Source: Bacteroidia bacterium
GTDB lineage: Bacteria; Bacteroidota; Bacteroidia; J057
Direction of reading: 5' to 3'
Assembly (NCBI GenBank): GCA_030430205.1
Contig: JAUIGE010000045.1
Coordinates: forward strand, 1 to 47,920
Length of the DNA stretch: 47,920 nucleotides
The position numbers and the translations under genes were made by a program. Of this stretch, positions 12,518 to 20,182 are shown one piece after another; the first letter of the stretch is position 1; each line of letters begins with the position of its first letter. The notes under the pieces are model-generated. The model made no database searches. It saw only the letters and a program-made list of their open reading frames with translations, and was not told the origin of the DNA.

Positions 12518-13417
12518 GTGAAGAAAATAAACCTGCATGCTCACCTGGCGCTCATGCGCCCTCACCAATACGTCAAAAACGTATTGATCTTCTTCCCTGC
12601 TTTTTTTGCAAAAAAAATGGGCTTAGGAGGCGAATTTGACCTCAATCTGCTCCTGCAGACCCTGGCTGCTTTCGCGGCATTCTGCCTGTTCGCATCTACC
12701 GTCTACATCCTCAACGATTATGCAGATCGTCAGGAGGATCGGCTACACCCCAAGAAAAAAAATCGCCCGCTCGCATCCGGCGCGGTACAACCTGCGGCAG
12801 CATTTGTTCAGATGGCTCTTCAACTGGCGATAGGAATGGCATTATTCCTTTGGGCAGGCGGCTGGCCCCTGCTGGCACTCGGAGCAGCTTATCTGCTCAT
12901 GAATACGGCTTATTCCTTTAAGCTCAAACATATTCCCATCATAGACCTCGTCGTGATCGCGACCGGCTTCGTGATGCGGCTTTTTGTAGGAGCCATGGTG
13001 GGCGGGATCGCCCTATCTATGTGGATCATCCTCATCACCTTTTTGCTGGCGCTCTTTTTGGGTCTCGCCAAAAGGCGAGACGATGTCCTCCTGCTTGCCA
13101 AAGGCAAGAAAGTCCGCAAAGCCATTGATGGCTACAACCTCGAATTTATCAATGGAGCCATGATCATGATGGCTTCTGTGACCGTAGTGGCTTATATTTC
13201 CTATACCATCTCTCCGGATAGCCAGGCCTTTTTCAAAAATAAAAACCTCTATTACACCGTCTTTTGGGTGATTTTGGGCATACTGCGCTATTTGCAGATT
13301 ACTTTTGTAGAGGAAAAAAGCGGCAGTCCTACGAAGGTCCTCCTGAAAGACCTTTTTCTCCAACTGACGATCCTGGGTTGGCTTGTGACTTTTGGGGTGC
13401 TGATTTATGCGGTATAG
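12518..13417 (+). CDS. UbiA family prenyltransferase, decaprenyl-phosphate phosphoribosyltransferase-like
   Basis: 299 residues with about nine hydrophobic helices. The first aspartate-rich motif is NDYADRQEDRLHPKKKNRPLASG (about residues 67-89), and the second conserved loop is FLGLAKRRDDVLLL. This RPHQYVKN start and the motif spacing match the UbiA branch that transfers phosphoribose to polyprenyl phosphate (DPPR synthase, first described for mycobacterial arabinan synthesis) better than quinone prenyltransferases. The start chosen is GTG 12518; ATG 12554 (MRPHQYVKN) is a real alternative. No partner epimerase is in the window. Its stop codon overlaps the operator before the response-regulator gene. 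Confidence 0.78.
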   Translation: MKKINLHAHLALMRPHQYVKNVLIFFPAFFAKKMGLGGEFDLNLLLQTLAAFAAFCLFASTVYILNDYADRQEDRLHPKKKNRPLASGAVQPAAAFVQMALQLAIGMALFLWAGGWPLLALGAAYLLMNTAYSFKLKHIPIIDLVVIATGFVMRLFVGAMVGGIALSMWIILITFLLALFLGLAKRRDDVLLLAKGKKVRKAIDGYNLEFINGAMIMMASVTVVAYISYTISPDSQAFFKNKNLYYTVFWVILGILRYLQITFVEEKSGSPTKVLLKDLFLQLTILGWLVTFGVLIYAV

Positions 13418-13433
13418 ATTCTATACAGAATCT
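13416..13433. promoter_or_regulatory. Candidate response-regulator operator, site 1 (before the regulator gene)
   Basis: AGATTCT-ATAC-AGAATCT: two 7-bp half sites with 11-bp centre spacing, the layout bound by OmpR/PhoB-type regulators. Its reverse complement matches site 2 (15378-15395) at 17 of 18 positions. Five bases later comes TAATTTTC (13439-13446), a one-mismatch Bacteroidota -7 box (TAnnTTTG), only 4 nt before the regulator ATG, which would make the mRNA nearly leaderless. Confidence 0.65.
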
Positions 13434-13450
13434 CTCCCTAATTTTCCCGT

Positions 13451-14128
13451 ATGAAAATCCTTCTCATAGAAGACGATCCCAGCCTGGCGGCTATAATCCG
13501 GCGCTACGCGCTCGATGAAGGGCTTCGCTGCGAAGCCGTGGGCAGCTATCAGGAGGCTGAGGAAAAGATTTTTCTCTATCCCTATGATATGGCCCTGGTA
13601 GACCTCGGCCTGCCCGATGGAGAGGGACTTGAACTGGTGAAAGCCCTGCGCCGGCATAGCCCCGAGACGGGTATCATCATCATCTCCGCGCGCAATGCCG
13701 TAGATGACCGCATCAAAGGACTGGAATACGGTGCTGACGATTACCTCAGCAAGCCTTTTCACTTGCCGGAGTTAAAAGCGCGCTTGCGCGCCCTGGAGCG
13801 CCGTAGGCAGCACAAAGGGGAAGAGCAGCTTCGCTTTGAAGAATTTACCCTCATACCCGAAAAGCACGAAGTGCATATACACAACAAAAGCCTGGCGCTG
13901 CGCAACAAAGAATATGAGCTGCTGCTTTTTCTGGTCGTAAACGAAGGCCGGGTATTGTCCAAGATGGCCATTGCGGAGCACCTTTGGGGGGATTATATGG
14001 ACGAAGCAGATTCTTTCGATTTTCTCTACAACCACATCAAAAATCTGCGAAAAAAGATACAGGAGGCCGGAGGCAAGGATTATATCCAAACCATCTACGG
14101 CCTGGGCTATAAATTCAGTCAGGCATGA
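13451..14128 (+). CDS. OmpR/PhoB-family response regulator
   Basis: 225 residues. The receiver domain (1-115) has the acidic pocket E7-D8-D9, the phosphate-accepting D51 (MALVDLGLPDG), the Thr/Ser position in IIISARNAVDD and the conserved Lys in YLSKPF. The C-terminal winged helix (about 128-225) shows LRNKEYELLLFLVVNEGRVLS and the wing VDSFDFLYNHIKNLRKKI-like region ending IYGLGYKF. Its stop overlaps the start of the kinase gene by 4 nt (ATGA), so the two are translationally coupled. The 18-bp operator just upstream suggests autoregulation. Confidence 0.95.
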   Translation: MKILLIEDDPSLAAIIRRYALDEGLRCEAVGSYQEAEEKIFLYPYDMALVDLGLPDGEGLELVKALRRHSPETGIIIISARNAVDDRIKGLEYGADDYLSKPFHLPELKARLRALERRRQHKGEEQLRFEEFTLIPEKHEVHIHNKSLALRNKEYELLLFLVVNEGRVLSKMAIAEHLWGDYMDEADSFDFLYNHIKNLRKKIQEAGGKDYIQTIYGLGYKFSQA

Positions 14129-15390
14129 AACTGATTCAGGCTACCACCCGAAGCTACTTTTTGTATGCATTCATCGCATTTGCGATCGGTGGCCTGCTGA
14201 GTTTTTGGATGGTGAAAAATGCCCTGTATGAAGAAGTGGACGAAAAGCTGTATGAGCACCTTCAGGAGGTAAAAAAAGCCCTGGATGCGGGCGAAACCAT
14301 CCCCGAGGCATGGCCTCGGAAGTTGGAGCGGCAGCTCACCCTCAGCACAGCTGACACAAGCCTCCTTCAATGGAAGGACAGCCTTATTTTTCATCCCGGG
14401 GAAAAAGAATTTCAGCCCTTTCGGCAATTGAAAAGCATCCATTCAGTGAATGGAAAAAGCCATCAGATCGTATTGCATGCTTCGCTGATCGAAGCTGAAG
14501 ACCTGGCGGAAGCCATGGGCAGCGCCCTGGCGCTATTGTTTGTGCTGCTCCTGGCAGGCCTCCTGCTGATCAACCGCAGCTTGCTGCGCAAGCTTTGGAC
14601 GCCCTTTTTCCAAACTCTGGAAAAACTCGGAGATTTTCGCCTGGTACAAAACAAAAAGCTGGCTTTGCCAGCCTCATCTATCGCTGAATTTCAGCAATTG
14701 AAGGCCGTTTTGGAAGATTTTTCGGCGCAGGCGCAGCATGATTTTGAAGCGGTGAAAGCCTTCACCGAAAATGCTTCGCATGAGATACAGACGCCCCTGG
14801 CGGCGGCGCTTTTGGAGCTGGACCTTTTGGCACAAAAGGAAGGATTGAGTGAGGAGCAGCTGAATCATATTCAGCATACCAACCTCTCTCTCCGCAGGCT
14901 TAGCCGCCTGAATGAAGGCCTGCTTTTGCTGGCGAAAATCGAAAACAGGCAGTTTGAGCTGGGAGAACAAGTCGCCTTAAAAGATGTGCTTACTGCCTCT
15001 GTAGGCCGTTTTGAGGAATTGGCTGAAGCAAAAGGGAAGGGGATTGAAAAACATTTTTCCCCCGCATCAAAAACGATCACAGGCTCTTCCATCCTGCTCG
15101 AAATCCTTTTCGACAACCTGCTCAAAAACGCCTTGCGGCACAGCCCGGAAGGCTGCATTATCAGCATTTCTCTGAACGAAAGCAGTTTTCGCATCTGCAA
15201 TCCCGGACAGCCTTTTCAAAAAGGCACTCAGCATCTTTTCGAGCGCTTTAACAAAGAAAACCATGCCTCGGACTCCCTGGGACTGGGCCTCGCCATCTGC
15301 CAGGAAATATGCAAAGCGCAGCAGCTACAGCTGCAATATGAATACCGGGAAGGACAGCATTGCTTTTTTGTGGAAATAGATTCTGTATAG
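14125..15390 (+). CDS. Sensor histidine kinase
   Basis: 421 residues. A first membrane helix at about 11-31, a short extracytoplasmic sensor loop of roughly 95 residues, and a second helix at about 130-150 precede a dimerisation/HisKA domain with phosphorylated H219 (ENASHEIQTPLAAALLEL). The HATPase domain has the N-box FDNLLKNALRHSPEG (about 329-343), the DSLGLGLAIC glycine box near 385-395, and an FERFNKEN F-box. It is the cognate kinase of the overlapping response-regulator gene. The sensor loop has no recognisable ligand domain. The operator for the downstream lipoprotein overlaps the last codons of this gene. Confidence 0.95.
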   Translation: MKLIQATTRSYFLYAFIAFAIGGLLSFWMVKNALYEEVDEKLYEHLQEVKKALDAGETIPEAWPRKLERQLTLSTADTSLLQWKDSLIFHPGEKEFQPFRQLKSIHSVNGKSHQIVLHASLIEAEDLAEAMGSALALLFVLLLAGLLLINRSLLRKLWTPFFQTLEKLGDFRLVQNKKLALPASSIAEFQQLKAVLEDFSAQAQHDFEAVKAFTENASHEIQTPLAAALLELDLLAQKEGLSEEQLNHIQHTNLSLRRLSRLNEGLLLLAKIENRQFELGEQVALKDVLTASVGRFEELAEAKGKGIEKHFSPASKTITGSSILLEILFDNLLKNALRHSPEGCIISISLNESSFRICNPGQPFQKGTQHLFERFNKENHASDSLGLGLAICQEICKAQQLQLQYEYREGQHCFFVEIDSV

Positions 15391-15395
15391 ATTCT
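15378..15395. promoter_or_regulatory. Candidate response-regulator operator, site 2 (before the PepSY-like lipoprotein gene)
   Basis: AGATTCT-GTAT-AGATTCT: a perfect 7-bp direct repeat at 11-bp spacing, spanning the end of the kinase gene. It matches site 1 (reverse complement) at 17 of 18 bases. Exactly 5 nt downstream lies TATATTTG, so the box covers the -33 region, where a regulator of this class could activate transcription. Confidence 0.7.
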
Positions 15396-15400
15396 CAAAT

Positions 15401-15408
15401 TATATTTG
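15401..15408 (+). promoter_or_regulatory. Bacteroidota-type -7 promoter element for the lipoprotein gene
   Basis: TATATTTG is a perfect match to the TAnnTTTG -7 consensus, with 34 nt to the lipoprotein ATG. No TTTG or TTG stands at the usual -33 position; the operator at 15378-15395 occupies it, consistent with activator-dependent expression. Confidence 0.6.
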
Positions 15409-15442: not shown

Positions 15443-15841
15443 ATGAATAAAATCATTTCTATTCTCACCACCCTGGCGCTGACGCTTTTTCTATTCGCCT
15501 GTAATCAGGATATGAACAACAACCAATCTGAAACCGTCAAGGCACCCAACAAGGAAGCGGCTGCTGCTACCAATTCCGCAGACGACAAAGAGCGCGAAAT
15601 CAGCCCTTCAGAGCTTCCTGATGTAATCAAAATGGCCATCCAGAACACCTATGCAGGTGCCGAAATGCTCGAAGCTGACGAGGTCACCCGCGCCAATGGC
15701 AGCATTTACTATGATGTCGAAATCAGGCACAAAGACCAGCGCTTCGAGCTGATGTATGAAAGTGATGGAACTTTCCTCGGGATTGAAGAAGAAGGCGACG
15801 ATGGGGATGACGATGATGATGATGACGACGACGGAGAGTAA
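15443..15841 (+). CDS. PepSY-like acidic lipoprotein linked to the two-component system
   Basis: 132 residues. The signal peptide ends LFAC, making Cys20 the lipidation site. After a low-complexity linker (about 21-50) comes a PepSY-like fold (about 53-115: SELPDVIKMAIQNTYAG, then EVTRANGSIYYDVEIRHKDQRFELMY followed by DGTFLGIEEE), and the tail is nearly all aspartate (GDDGDDDDDDDDDGE). PepSY-like proteins often act outside the cell membrane as inhibitors or modulators of partner proteins. Its position behind regulator and kinase genes, with its own operator and -7 box, suggests it is a regulon member and perhaps feeds back on the kinase sensor loop. The tail could bind divalent cations. Confidence 0.8.
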   Translation: MNKIISILTTLALTLFLFACNQDMNNNQSETVKAPNKEAAAATNSADDKEREISPSELPDVIKMAIQNTYAGAEMLEADEVTRANGSIYYDVEIRHKDQRFELMYESDGTFLGIEEEGDDGDDDDDDDDDGE

Positions 15842-15973: not shown

Positions 15974-18370
15974 TCATTTCAAAAAATAATTATTCAAAAC
16001 CAGCCTCCCCCCTGCTTCGCAGTAGACATCCACGCCCTGCGGGCGAATCAGCAAATTGTCAAAGGACAATTTTTCCCCATCGCTGAAAAGCCTGATCCGG
16101 TTTCCTGCTTTTTGCAGGCTAAAAGGGATTTCTACCCGCGCCCACTCTCCGACAACATCCGTTGTTGATTTCATGCCTTTCCAGTCCCAACTGACAGAAG
16201 TCTCGCCCTCAAATTGCTGGACTATGAGTCCCGGGAGGTAATTGGATTCGATATCCAGTTTCACCCAAATGGAAAGCTCCATAGGTGTATTATCGCTTGC
16301 GGAAGGAATTTCGCCCTCAAAGATGACCGCATTTCGTTCTTCAACATGCTTCATTTCTCCCTTCTCTTTATCAAATCCTTCGATCACTATCGCATTCGTT
16401 GAATCCGTCACAAAAACGCCCACAGCAGCCTGATACAGGCTGTCTTTCAGCCCTTCAAACTTTTCCACAGCTTCTTCAGCCTGATCCTCAAAAGCATCCA
16501 GTGGCAGGAGAGCAAAGTGCATATTGGCTAGCTGAAAAAGCAATTCAGATTGATCTATCAGATAGGCTTCCCGCATGGGCGGTTTTTCCTCGGTATAGGT
16601 ATAGAGCAGCAAAAGGGGCTTTTGATTGGGAAACTTTGCTGGCAAAGTCTTCCTGATGAGGGGATGCGCAACCAATTGTATGGTTTCCAGAGAAGGCGTC
16701 AAAGGCGCCCGGGCGACATAATTATTGACGATGGGCAAGCCCAGATTGAGGGAAGCTGCTTTGGAGAAAAAACTGGCGTGCCAGCCTTCCATGACCAGTT
16801 TTTCGGAACCCACATGGTAAAAAGGAAAAGCCAGAATGGCCTGAAAATCATCGGGCTGGTAGCCTTTTTCGGTCAATAGAGCAGTATAATCTGCTTTCCA
16901 GTTTTTGTAATTGGGGTCAATGGTATTTTGAAAAATAAACTGGGTTTGTGCTTTATACAGAATGCGCGCTTCCAACATCCAGAGCGCCGATGCGCCCAAA
17001 ATCAGCCATACACCCGCCAGCCAAAGACGGCTGCCTCTGCTTTGCATGCGAAGCCTGCGGTACAAGGCAAAAAATAGCCAGGCGCAAAGCACCATGAAAG
17101 CATAATAAAAAGGCCAGGCAAGGCGGCCCAGAGAACGAAACTGTCGCAGAAAATCTGCCATTTCGAGCAGAAAGGGCAATTTGTCAAATAGCCAGCCTGT
17201 GGCCAGGGGCAGCAGCAGAAATGCTGCCCAGATCGCAGGCGCCAAAGGCGCCGGAAGCACCGGGCGAAAGATGCGCTTTGCGCCTCGATGCCAAAAAGCG
17301 CGCAAGCGCTTTTCGGGGGATTGAATAGCGGATTGTAAACCCGCTAAAAGCAGCCAGCCCATTCGCAGGAATATGACCCACAGCATCATAAAACCCACAA
17401 TCCCCACATAAGCGGAGCCTTCCAGGCTGTCTTTGTCTGAATCCGAAAAGTGATCCCAAATGCCGGTATATTTATAGACTTCCCATAAGGGAGAAGGGCG
17501 ATATTCTGAAGGTCGGGCAGGCAAAAATATCGTCTCAAAGCCTGCCAGGTAGTAATCAAATCCATAAGGATATTTCACAAAATCCGTCGCAGTGGTAGTC
17601 GTCTCCTTTTGCCAGCCCAGCAAAATCACAATGGGCAAAGCGCCCAGGAGGAAGACAGGCAGGTATATTTTCAGGTTTTTTCGCCAGGCAGAAAAATTTT
17701 GCAACAAATGCACAAATGCATAAGCAAATAGAAAACCGCCACCAATCAGGAAATGATAAGGGTGAGCAAACTCAAAAATCACCGTCGCCAGCAGGTATAG
17801 CCCCAGCCAAAGGGCAATTTTTTTTCCCTCAAATAAGCGAATCAGCAAATACCACATCATCGGCACGAAGAAGATATAGGAAAGCGCATAATGGCCGGTA
17901 AAACGGTCTATTTGAGGAGAAAGCCAGGTGATGACGATGGCAAAAAGAAAGGCGAAGCCCTGGTTCAAATGATTTTTTCGCAGAATCAAAAAGAGGAAAA
18001 ATACAGCAGGGAAAAAGCTGAGGATCATGCTGTAGTTGATGATGCCTGGCACATAGCCCGAAATGTCTGTGACATTCCGGCTAAAAAAACGCATCAACCA
18101 CGAAAGCGTGGGATTGAGGTCTGCATAGACGAGGTGGTTGCCGTGAGGATAGGCAAAGCCTGTATGCAGGGCCCCTGCGGGATTGTGCTTAACAAACCAG
18201 CTGGAAGCGTAGTATGTCTTGAGGCCATCGCCGCCTGCGGCGAAGAGGTAGTTGTTGGGGTGCTGGATGACGGGGCCGAAGGCCTGGATAAGCATCAGCC
18301 CTGTGAGGGCCAAAAGCAGGAAAATGACTGTTTTTTCGGAAAGAAAAATGACCCTGTTTTTTAGCTTCAT
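15974..18370 (-). CDS. Large GT-C-like integral membrane protein with C-terminal soluble domain
   Basis: 798 residues. About ten to twelve hydrophobic helices occupy residues 10-480; the first extracytoplasmic loop holds GGDGLKTYYASSW and YPHGNHLVYADLNP, resembling the acidic first loop of polyprenyl-dependent GT-C glycosyltransferases and of DUF6311-type proteins. Residues 490-680 form a soluble region, and the last 110 residues (from about 690) look like a beta-sandwich carbohydrate-binding module (ELSIWVKLDIESNYLPG, WARVEIPFSLQKAGNRIRLF). The likely role is sugar transfer to an envelope glycan or protein, but substrate and activity are not shown by sequence. It is transcribed away from the ATPase/DUF4276 pair's downstream end, on the same strand. 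Confidence 0.65.
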   Translation of the reverse strand: MKLKNRVIFLSEKTVIFLLLALTGLMLIQAFGPVIQHPNNYLFAAGGDGLKTYYASSWFVKHNPAGALHTGFAYPHGNHLVYADLNPTLSWLMRFFSRNVTDISGYVPGIINYSMILSFFPAVFFLFLILRKNHLNQGFAFLFAIVITWLSPQIDRFTGHYALSYIFFVPMMWYLLIRLFEGKKIALWLGLYLLATVIFEFAHPYHFLIGGGFLFAYAFVHLLQNFSAWRKNLKIYLPVFLLGALPIVILLGWQKETTTTATDFVKYPYGFDYYLAGFETIFLPARPSEYRPSPLWEVYKYTGIWDHFSDSDKDSLEGSAYVGIVGFMMLWVIFLRMGWLLLAGLQSAIQSPEKRLRAFWHRGAKRIFRPVLPAPLAPAIWAAFLLLPLATGWLFDKLPFLLEMADFLRQFRSLGRLAWPFYYAFMVLCAWLFFALYRRLRMQSRGSRLWLAGVWLILGASALWMLEARILYKAQTQFIFQNTIDPNYKNWKADYTALLTEKGYQPDDFQAILAFPFYHVGSEKLVMEGWHASFFSKAASLNLGLPIVNNYVARAPLTPSLETIQLVAHPLIRKTLPAKFPNQKPLLLLYTYTEEKPPMREAYLIDQSELLFQLANMHFALLPLDAFEDQAEEAVEKFEGLKDSLYQAAVGVFVTDSTNAIVIEGFDKEKGEMKHVEERNAVIFEGEIPSASDNTPMELSIWVKLDIESNYLPGLIVQQFEGETSVSWDWKGMKSTTDVVGEWARVEIPFSLQKAGNRIRLFSDGEKLSFDNLLIRPQGVDVYCEAGGRLVLNNYFLK

Positions 18371-18425: not shown

Positions 18426-19094
18426 TCATGAAGCTGCTGGTTTACAATAGGCAATAATTTTTTCAACCCATAGATTAAAACGAGGGCATTTTTGGCGTAA
18501 AATAGGAACACCAATTTCAATGGCCATAATAGGGCCATGCAAAGGTTTCTGATAACCAGGAATTAGCTTTTTTAATCGTTTTGAAGGTGCCGTATTTTCG
18601 CCCTCATTGATCAGTTCAGGATTTGGATTCTCATCGATTATCCTTTCTAATTCTCTTTTATTGTCTTCTGGAACATCTGGTAGGTAGTTAAAGCCCTTTT
18701 TATCCGCAAACAGCAAGCCCTCAAACTCATGTAGTTGAATGTATGGAAGAAAGCGATCATGACTGATTTGCTCTTTTACTGCATTTCCCAGAAAGGCAAT
18801 TCTTTCCTGTACATCTGCGATTCCTTTAGATTCCTGAAAAGCTGGAAAATCTTTATATAAGCGATAAAAATCTATCAATGAGGTTAGGAGAATATCTTTT
18901 TCCCTTTTAAGAATCACACCAGCATTCCATTTAAACCGATCAAATTTTATATCGCCGCCTTTATGGCCCGGACTTGTTTGAAGACTAATAGGCCTCACAT
19001 CATACAATCCATGTAAATGGAAATAGGGAGCGAGACATTCGTTGACAAACTCACTTTCAGTTAGTCCTTCAACAATAATATAAACACCTCTCAT
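18426..19094 (-). CDS. DUF4276 family protein, probable TOPRIM-like effector of an ATPase pair
   Basis: 222 residues. Recognisable family motifs: IIVEGLTESEFV (E9, E13) at the N-terminus, LTSLIDFYRLYKDFP around D75, and LHEFEGLLFADKKGF (H122, E123, E125). The EG-x-TE and later Asp arrangement resembles the metal-binding acidic residues of TOPRIM nucleases (as in OLD proteins), but this is an inference. The start ATG overlaps the ATPase stop by 4 nt (ATGA), so the two proteins are coupled. Base composition is clearly more AT-rich than flanking genes. By analogy with AAA plus DUF4435 in PARIS, this would be the effector half of a defence pair. Confidence 0.82.
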   Translation of the reverse strand: MRGVYIIVEGLTESEFVNECLAPYFHLHGLYDVRPISLQTSPGHKGGDIKFDRFKWNAGVILKREKDILLTSLIDFYRLYKDFPAFQESKGIADVQERIAFLGNAVKEQISHDRFLPYIQLHEFEGLLFADKKGFNYLPDVPEDNKRELERIIDENPNPELINEGENTAPSKRLKKLIPGYQKPLHGPIMAIEIGVPILRQKCPRFNLWVEKIIAYCKPAAS

Positions 19095-20182
19095 TTAGGC
19101 AACCCCCCAAGAACGTTTTTCTCCCACAATTCGCCTACAGAGAACTCTTCTAACCAGTCTGTCAAATCTTCCTCCGATTGTCTTTTAAAAACGGTTTGCT
19201 TGTTTTCTCTTTCTACTACAATAATGTCATCAGGTGAAAAGGCGTTAACCAGATTAACGGACTGGGTAGAAATGATAACTTGAGAAGTCAAGGATGCGCT
19301 TTTTAGCATGGCAGCCAATTTGTTTAGAGCAAAAGGGTGCAAACCAAGTTCTGGTTCATCTATAATGATTGTATCAGGCTTTTCAGGTTGAAGCAAAAGA
19401 GTTGCTAGACAAATCATCCTTAATGTTCCATCAGAGAAATTGTGAGCTGTAAATAATTGATCTGAGCCTTTTTCAAACCATCTTAAATAAATTTGTTCTG
19501 AATTGATTTCATCAGGTTCTAAATAGAATCTGTCAAAAAACGGAGCGATAGACTTCACCACCTGTTCAATCATCCGAAAATAACTGAGGTGGGTATTGGA
19601 AAGGCGATACAAAAAAGCAGCAAGATTTCCCCCATCCTCTCTTAAAAAGGCATAATCTATTGAGCTAGAAGGTTTTTTTAATTTTGAATTGAAACTTGTG
19701 TCGTGAAAATGAAAAACCTTAAACTGTTTAAATTGGGTTCCTAAATATTCATTTCTATAAGCACTATCATTTGGAAAGACGCTTTCAAAATTTCCGCCAA
19801 AACTAATTTGTTTACGATTGGGTCTTTTAGTTACGGGGTAGGAATAATTACTCCACTCTGAGGTGAAAAACAGATTATCGCCTGTTTCAGGCTCCATTCT
19901 AAACTCATATTCATTCTTCCAGTCATTATCAAAAGTTATTCTTCCTGAAATAAAATCTGATGTTTTACTTCCAAAATACAGGAAGTTTTCGGCGCGTCCA
20001 TAGCGACTTACATACAGTTGCAGCTGTTGATTATATAATTGATTGAGGAATTTAAAGAAACTGATAAAATTGCTTTTCCCAGCTCCATTTGGGCCAATCA
20101 ATACATTAATTGGATTGATCTTTATTGACCCACTATCGTGAATGGATTTAAAATTTTTTATTTGAATGGAGTCTATTCCCAT
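19091..20182 (-). CDS. AAA family ATPase (ABC/SMC-type, AAA_21-like), sensor half of a two-gene module
   Basis: 363 residues. Walker A GPNGAGKS at 30-37, an ABC-like signature HNFSDGTLR at 248-255, and Walker B TIIIDEPELGLHP at 271-283 (D275, E276), followed by the VIISTQSVNLVNAF switch region. A long insertion between Walker A and signature (about 45-245) replaces an SMC coiled coil. This is the RecF/OLD-like ATPase group used in many phage-defence systems. It is the first gene of a coupled pair with the DUF4276 gene. AT-rich composition suggests horizontal transfer. A hairpin with a minus-strand T-tract lies about 50 bases upstream. Confidence 0.88.
   Translation of the reverse strand: MGIDSIQIKNFKSIHDSGSIKINPINVLIGPNGAGKSNFISFFKFLNQLYNQQLQLYVSRYGRAENFLYFGSKTSDFISGRITFDNDWKNEYEFRMEPETGDNLFFTSEWSNYSYPVTKRPNRKQISFGGNFESVFPNDSAYRNEYLGTQFKQFKVFHFHDTSFNSKLKKPSSSIDYAFLREDGGNLAAFLYRLSNTHLSYFRMIEQVVKSIAPFFDRFYLEPDEINSEQIYLRWFEKGSDQLFTAHNFSDGTLRMICLATLLLQPEKPDTIIIDEPELGLHPFALNKLAAMLKSASLTSQVIISTQSVNLVNAFSPDDIIVVERENKQTVFKRQSEEDLTDWLEEFSVGELWEKNVLGGLPK

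Follow-up and report, generated by a model that had tools for sequence, protein, structure and literature searches.

Candidate tandem operators at both ends of a PorY-family sensor kinase and OmpR/PhoB-type regulator locus in the class Bacteroidia

The stretch of DNA analysed here (hereafter the window) comprises positions 1 to 47,920 of contig JAUIGE010000045.1 from the Bacteroidia bacterium assembly GCA_030430205.1 and carries a two-component locus in which the genes for an OmpR/PhoB-family response regulator and a PorY-family sensor histidine kinase are bracketed by two similar sequences of 18 base pairs (bp), site 1 (AGATTCTATACAGAATCT, 13416-13433) and site 2 (AGATTCTGTATAGATTCT, 15378-15395). 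With a probability of roughly 0.8, these sites are tandem operators of the regulator encoded between them, as suggested by a comparison of related loci from the same class. The genes and features of the locus, with lengths in amino acids (aa) and distances in nucleotides (nt), are as follows:

12518-13417, + strand: UbiA-family gene preceding the regulator gene
13413..13434, + strand: candidate operator 1, given in the register of the class motif, with half-sites TATAGATTC (13413-13421) and TACAGAATC (13424-13432), 11-bp period, including the 18-mer 13416-13433
13439..13446, + strand: putative -7 box of the regulator gene, TAATTTTC, 5/6 consensus bases, 4 nt past the 22-mer and 4 nt ahead of the ATG
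13451..14128, + strand: OmpR/PhoB-family response regulator, 225 aa (PF00072 at 89.3 bits and PF00486 at 65.8 bits, each exceeding the gathering score)
14125..15390, + strand: PorY-family sensor histidine kinase, 421 aa (scoring 409.5 bits with NF052314, the cut-off of which is 350; HisKA and HATPase_c domains)
15375..15396, + strand: candidate operator 2, likewise in the class motif register, with half-sites AATAGATTC (15375-15383) and TATAGATTC (15386-15394), lying over the kinase stop codon and including the 18-mer 15378-15395
15401..15408, + strand: putative -7 box of the PepSY-like gene, TATATTTG, 6/6 consensus bases, 34 nt ahead of the ATG
15443..15841, + strand: PepSY-like lipoprotein, 132 aa, tail rich in aspartate (PF11396 22.5 bits, E 1.4e-4, under the gathering score of 28.3)

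The regulator possesses both the receiver domain and the winged-helix Trans_reg_C domain that define the OmpR/PhoB class, its translation holds the phospho-acceptor aspartate (D51 in ALVDLGLPDG), and its recognition helix contains the residues N194, H195, K197 and R200. With respect to the two sites, a preliminary description of the window had reported that they agree at 17 of 18 bases once site 1 is reverse-complemented, that both 18-mers contain half-sites at an 11-bp period, and that each -7 box begins 5 nt beyond the 18-mer, and a recount agrees on all three points. The opposed orientation implied by the first of them does not hold, however, as judged by the spacing of their -7 boxes both sites face the same way, as do most sites in relatives, and in the same reading direction 15 of the 18 bases are identical. 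The reverse-complement pairing is rather a by-product of the AGAWTCT half-site of the window being nearly its own reverse complement. Read forward, both sites have their -7 box 4 nt past the 22-mer, which is also the commonest spacing among relatives.

For the comparison, 395 genomes of the same class were available, 114 of which hold an NF052314-type kinase at E 1e-90 or better. From among the matches listed, 141 loci were taken, not every match being included, and 130 with a distinct, readable regulator start were kept; six others were dropped because the regulator start was missing, partial or too short (L041, L077, L098, L122, L128, L171), and five more were duplicates. Regulator and kinase genes are adjacent by the test of the script used in 124 of the 130 loci. 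In the site list, site 2 of the window was entered by hand and site 1 was set by hand to the 22-mer register, which applies to the box, profile, covariation and post-kinase counts given below.

Upstream of the regulator genes, self-matching of the sequence is highest at a lag of 11 bp (0.342, the maximum of lags 3-24, followed by 0.310 at lag 12), as compared to 0.282 at the same lag in a control region 90-150 bp upstream (129 loci with a full 150-bp upstream region). A motif search in the 130 upstream regions returned TTCARAATTTC followed by TTCAGAATT, i.e., two half-sites with an 11-bp period (TTCARAATTTC-TTCAGAATY), with a log-likelihood of 579 versus at most 84 in 15 mononucleotide shuffles, which keep base composition only and were run with fewer iterations than the real search. 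Outside this 22-bp motif, a -7 box with at least 5/6 bases of the consensus TAnnTTTG follows after 4-5 nt at 60 of 79 regulator sites, the control rate being 1.2% at coding positions (310/25,058) and 2.5% at far-upstream positions (64/2,580). According to PMC7366714, this consensus was worked out in Bacteroides fragilis and recurs in Flavobacterium johnsoniae. Together with the kinase family, the -7 boxes of the window point to a host from the Bacteroidota. At 39 of the 60 boxed sites the box lies at most 8 nt ahead of the start codon of the regulator gene, most commonly with a gap of 4 nt (25/60), and therefore the 5' end of the regulator messenger RNA (mRNA) should fall on the start codon or close to it. 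Thus, the regulator mRNA of the window is predicted to be leaderless or nearly so, and those of PorY-linked loci to be mostly leaderless; for Bacteroides thetaiotaomicron, leaders shorter than 10 nt are given as about 3.7% (PMC7366714). Operator 1 itself reaches 13.7 bits by the class motif in the 13413..13434 register, the motif search having favoured a register shifted forward by 11 bp, at 14.6 bits.

The same motif recurs behind the kinase genes. Of 116 loci with a readable post-kinase frame, 38 have a PepSY-like gene next, as chosen by eye from the translations. The motif trained on the regulator upstream regions exceeds 14 bits on the forward strand ahead of 20 of the 38 genes, as compared to none on the reverse strand (0/38); before other next genes the corresponding numbers are 19/78 and 0/78. 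With a threshold of 12 bits, an operator is present between -30 and +330 bp of the kinase stop in 63 of 129 other loci, the reverse strand yielding 1/130. When site 2 of the window is counted in, there are 64 post-kinase operators, 46 of which begin between -20 and +15 of the kinase stop and 51 of which have a box at 4-5 nt. In turn, a motif trained on the post-kinase regions only and tested on the regulator upstream regions exceeds 12 bits in 56/130 cases on the forward strand, 5/130 on the reverse strand and 2/129 further upstream. In total, 97 of the 130 loci have at least one operator site and 46 have both above 12 bits, such that the layout operator, regulator, kinase, operator, target recurs in relatives. 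The post-kinase target is not always PepSY-like but may also be a TolC-like or another outer-membrane or secreted protein, as judged by translation. The OmpR/PhoB-class geometry that had been proposed from the window alone is thereby corroborated, as the 11-bp repeat and the fixed box distance recur across the 130 loci both before the regulator and after the kinase.

A further line of evidence links the operators to the regulator itself. In the 46 loci with both operators, the two operators of one locus agree at 13.98 of 18 half-site bases versus 11.57 (standard deviation 0.24) when shuffled, a value reached in 0 of 5000 shuffles, while their flanking bases show no excess agreement (4.63 versus 4.83 shuffled). 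Mutual information between half-site bases and regulator columns, assessed in 97 loci with shuffled labels, places columns 194, 195 and 200 at the top of 185, all three of them within the recognition helix, with columns 214, 151, 222, 196, 192 and 197 on the next ranks. After clustering at 80, 70 and 60% identity (78, 64 and 39 representatives, respectively), columns 194, 195 and 197 are still near the top together with column 151, and in the 39 representatives below 60% identity the former three are among the five best column-base pairs. In PhoP of Mycobacterium tuberculosis, Ser216 and Tyr217 of the recognition helix are reported among the side chains that contact bases of the 7-bp motif (PMC4832192), and by matching to HIKNLRKK we infer that they correspond to positions 194 and 195 of the window regulator. 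N194 occurs in only two of the 97 loci, namely the window and a same-genus relative (G001), and an A is found at position 2 in all six of their half-sites. A relative from the same family (L041), the regulator frame of which has an inner stop, likewise has N194 and by eye carries similar repeats before its regulator gene. The window sites are a diverged version of the candidate operator, shared by genomes with an N194 regulator.

A number of observations weigh against this assignment. First, neither position holds a site of more than 12 bits in 33 of the 130 loci, and in the relative G001 the motif is strong before the PepSY-like gene (16.9 bits) and weak before the regulator gene (9.6 bits). 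Second, site 2 scores only 4.3 bits with the class motif on the forward strand, while the best match on the reverse strand of this 110-bp region reaches 12.0 bits; therefore, its assignment rests on its position, its box and its likeness to site 1. Site 2 is also absent from the 27 matches at E 10 or better that a roughly calibrated class profile, built from 113 of 143 listed operators, returned for its own genome among the 150 of 3,044 first-look candidates that were scored, despite being one of the training rows of the profile. Third, column 151 lies outside the recognition helix and covaries about as strongly as the helix columns, and the label shuffles used in the covariation tests ignore shared ancestry. 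The concentration of covariation in the helix is informative because all regulator columns share the same ancestry. Finally, sequence comparison has no power on the sign of regulation, so that what is taken for activation could be repression.

Taken as operators of the adjacent regulator, the two sites suggest the following scheme. The PorY-family kinase would phosphorylate the regulator, which, to judge from the repeat, its period and the helix covariation, would bind as a head-to-tail dimer with one monomer per half-site. The operator lies approximately at the position of the -33 element and ends just before the -7 box, and activation is therefore likely, the bound dimer most likely recruiting RNA polymerase. 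Site 1 would thus confer autoregulation on the regulator-kinase pair and site 2 would drive the gene of the PepSY-like lipoprotein, which in turn probably feeds back on the sensor domain of the kinase by analogy with DbfQ, a speculative step, as is the possibility that this feedback is tuned by cations. Of the autoregulation and direct activation of the PepSY-like gene that had been predicted from the window, control of both genes by the regulator is supported by the 130-locus comparison, and for activation it is the layout that makes it likely.

The strongest competing explanation, which we nevertheless regard as rather unlikely, assumes that the regulator is a repressor and blocks the polymerase from a position between the -33 region and the -7 box, resulting in negative autoregulation and in repression of the PepSY-like gene. 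Repressors can indeed also sit at the place occupied by the operator, the end of which is 4-5 nt away from the -7 box. However, OmpR/PhoB-family regulators often activate from positions just before the -7 box, and by eye there is no TTTG at the usual -33 distance in the window, to which this observation is confined, as would suit activator-dependent promoters. In addition, data on dbfQRS presented in PMC12714742 are suggestive of positive autoregulation.

Far less probable is the assumption that site 1 is the palindromic operator AGATTCT-N4-AGAATCT of an unrelated repressor that acts as a dimer, with site 2 as a degenerate version of site 1. The perfect 7-bp inverted repeat formed by site 1 and its pairing with site 2 at 17 of 18 bases after reverse complementation would be in line with this assumption; it was rejected because the half-sites in relatives are direct repeats with an 11-bp period and because covariation links the operator bases to the recognition helix of the adjacent regulator.

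That the likeness of the two sites arose by chance or from the ends of the upstream genes, both of which read GTA TAG and the stop codons of which are overlapped by the sites (UbiA-family gene, ending at 13417, and kinase gene, ending at 15390), is hardly credible given that relatives carry the operator at these two places as well and that the sequence is rare in the window and the genome. With up to three mismatches, the 18-mer is found in the 47,920-bp window at sites 1 and 2 only (three rows, since site 1 matches on both strands), whereas 100 dinucleotide shuffles of the window gave a mean of 0.03 matches and none of them reached three, so that a chance match within the window is unlikely. 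A combined operator-plus-box pattern built to fit both window sites, YAGAWTC-N4-YAGAWTC-N6-TANNTTTB, is matched perfectly at just two places of the 7.24-Mb genome, namely sites 1 and 2.

The 18-mer had also been put forward as a motif for a regulon search, a use that was not sustained. Although the genome holds 12 rows with at most three mismatches as compared to one for a reversed-pattern control, eight of the nine further places lie inside open frames of at least 229 aa, and the ninth (L004) starts in the fifth codon of a frame below the 100-aa listing limit. The 18-mer was therefore dropped as a search tool, having revealed no wider regulon in the genome. With up to three mismatches the operator-plus-box pattern gives 20 rows versus 11 for its control, an excess of about twofold only. 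By the window-type pattern no wider regulon is seen in the 7.24 Mb of the genome beyond the two perfect matches, and the circuit looks private in its own genome, the paralogous module described below differing in both operator and helix.

This second module, which lies on another contig (genome G000, contig C26; L042, L182, L183), has a regulator with A194 and the half-sites TTCCAATTT and TTCCAAATT. Thus, the two paralogous circuits appear to use different operators within one cell. Among the own-genome matches of the class profile, only three have an E-value of 0.1 or better: the promoter of the paralogous regulator (E 2.5e-4, in the training set), a site outside the training set before a PepSY-like lipoprotein gene about 0.9 kb past the paralogous kinase, with another frame between them (E 0.0096), and operator 1 (E 0.074, site 1 being among the training rows of the model). 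The remaining matches have E 0.25 or worse, and several of the 11 that were inspected out of the 27 lie within long frames. One of them, L186 (E 0.42), is located 63 nt before a 156-aa frame and could be a further real target, its half-sites being nearer to those of the paralogue.

In 12 other genomes, 19 of 30 loci were inspected among the matches listed. Leaving aside members of the training set, these matches precede genes which, by translation and without a significance test, encode among others outer-membrane proteins, a PepSY-like protein, a probable efflux adaptor and proteins with a receiver domain. A separate observation concerns contig C1 of genome G005, where at least four profile matches in two divergent pairs lie within about 5 kb (143.4-148.2 kb; L210, L222, L234) next to uncharacterised frames.

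On a larger scale, we see an even chance that the bracketed operators and the recognition helix evolve together across the class (residues 194-197 versus half-site bases 2-4), that paralogues are thereby insulated from each other, as with N194/TAYAGAWTC versus A194/TTCCAAATT, and that the regulator mRNAs are mostly leaderless. If true, this would amount to a readable specificity code tying each PorY-family sensor to its target. A class-wide operator together with the helix signal would make many targets of PorY-family sensors predictable from sequence, and the loci offer ready promoters for reporter assays as well as a direct test of feedback by PepSY-like proteins on kinases.

Compared with known systems, the proposed mechanism is of a familiar kind, combining an OmpR/PhoB tandem operator with a DbfQRS-like module. 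According to PMC4832192, M. tuberculosis PhoP binds as a tandem dimer with the recognition helix reading the major groove, and the PhoP box, like the pho box of Escherichia coli PhoB, consists of two 7-bp direct repeats with a 4-bp spacer, an arrangement shared by the window sites. In contrast to these boxes, the window sites differ in half-site sequence, stand directly before a -7 box of the Bacteroidota type, and flank the sensor gene pair on either side.

A small secreted PepSY-domain protein beside a kinase-regulator pair is also known from DbfQRS of Vibrio cholerae, where DbfQ is described to bind the sensor domain of the kinase (PMC12714742); secretion of the window protein is predicted. 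However, dbfQ precedes the kinase-regulator pair, and co-transcription is predicted for it (PMC12714742), whereas the PepSY-like gene of the window lies downstream of the kinase gene with its own candidate operator and -7 box. The main text of PMC12714742 names dbfQRS-type modules in Proteobacteria, Terrabacteria and Fusobacteria, and Bacteroidota are unmentioned there. By coordinates, genome G305 (contig C1, about 2.5145-2.5150 Mb; L056, L235) has an operator-preceded PepSY-like gene directly upstream of the regulator gene, a gene order that resembles dbfQRS.

As in PorXY of Porphyromonas gingivalis, the kinase belongs to the PorY family, scoring above the NF052314 cut-off, but its neighbouring partner is an OmpR/PhoB-type regulator and not PorX. 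With regard to PmrAB (BasRS), PmrA is the best NCBIfam model for the window regulator (167.6 bits, far under the model cut-off of 330), and the proteins of solved structure that are closest to the regulator in sequence include BasR. Searches of the open-access literature found no description of the operator family, the bracketed layout or the covariation of helix and operator bases in Bacteroidota.

Secretion of the window protein was judged solely from the lipobox-like FAC in its translation, and the protein keeps only the second of two repeats that are found in most of the 36 other aligned proteins. All 37 aligned PepSY-like proteins, including that of the window and omitting the longer L152 frame, match PF11396 at E 0.001. 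A single-sequence model of the window protein comprises a helix and four strands (mean pLDDT 69.4), and a Foldseek search with it gave weak matches (best E 8.5e-3), the top ones being periplasmic proteins of Parabacteroides and Bacteroides, which we take to be PepSY-like proteins as well; the first of them is described as calcium-binding. For a PepSY-like fold this result is only supportive. Acidic tails are also present on the PepSY-like proteins of L045 and L051.

Elsewhere in the window, a frame for a 798-aa membrane-protein-like product on the minus strand (15974-18370) has no Pfam or NCBIfam match at E 0.001. Also on the minus strand, at 18426-20182, genes for a DUF4276 protein and an AAA_21 ATPase form a candidate anti-phage HEC-01 pair (PADLOC HEC-01B 249.8 bits, HEC-01A 463.9 bits).

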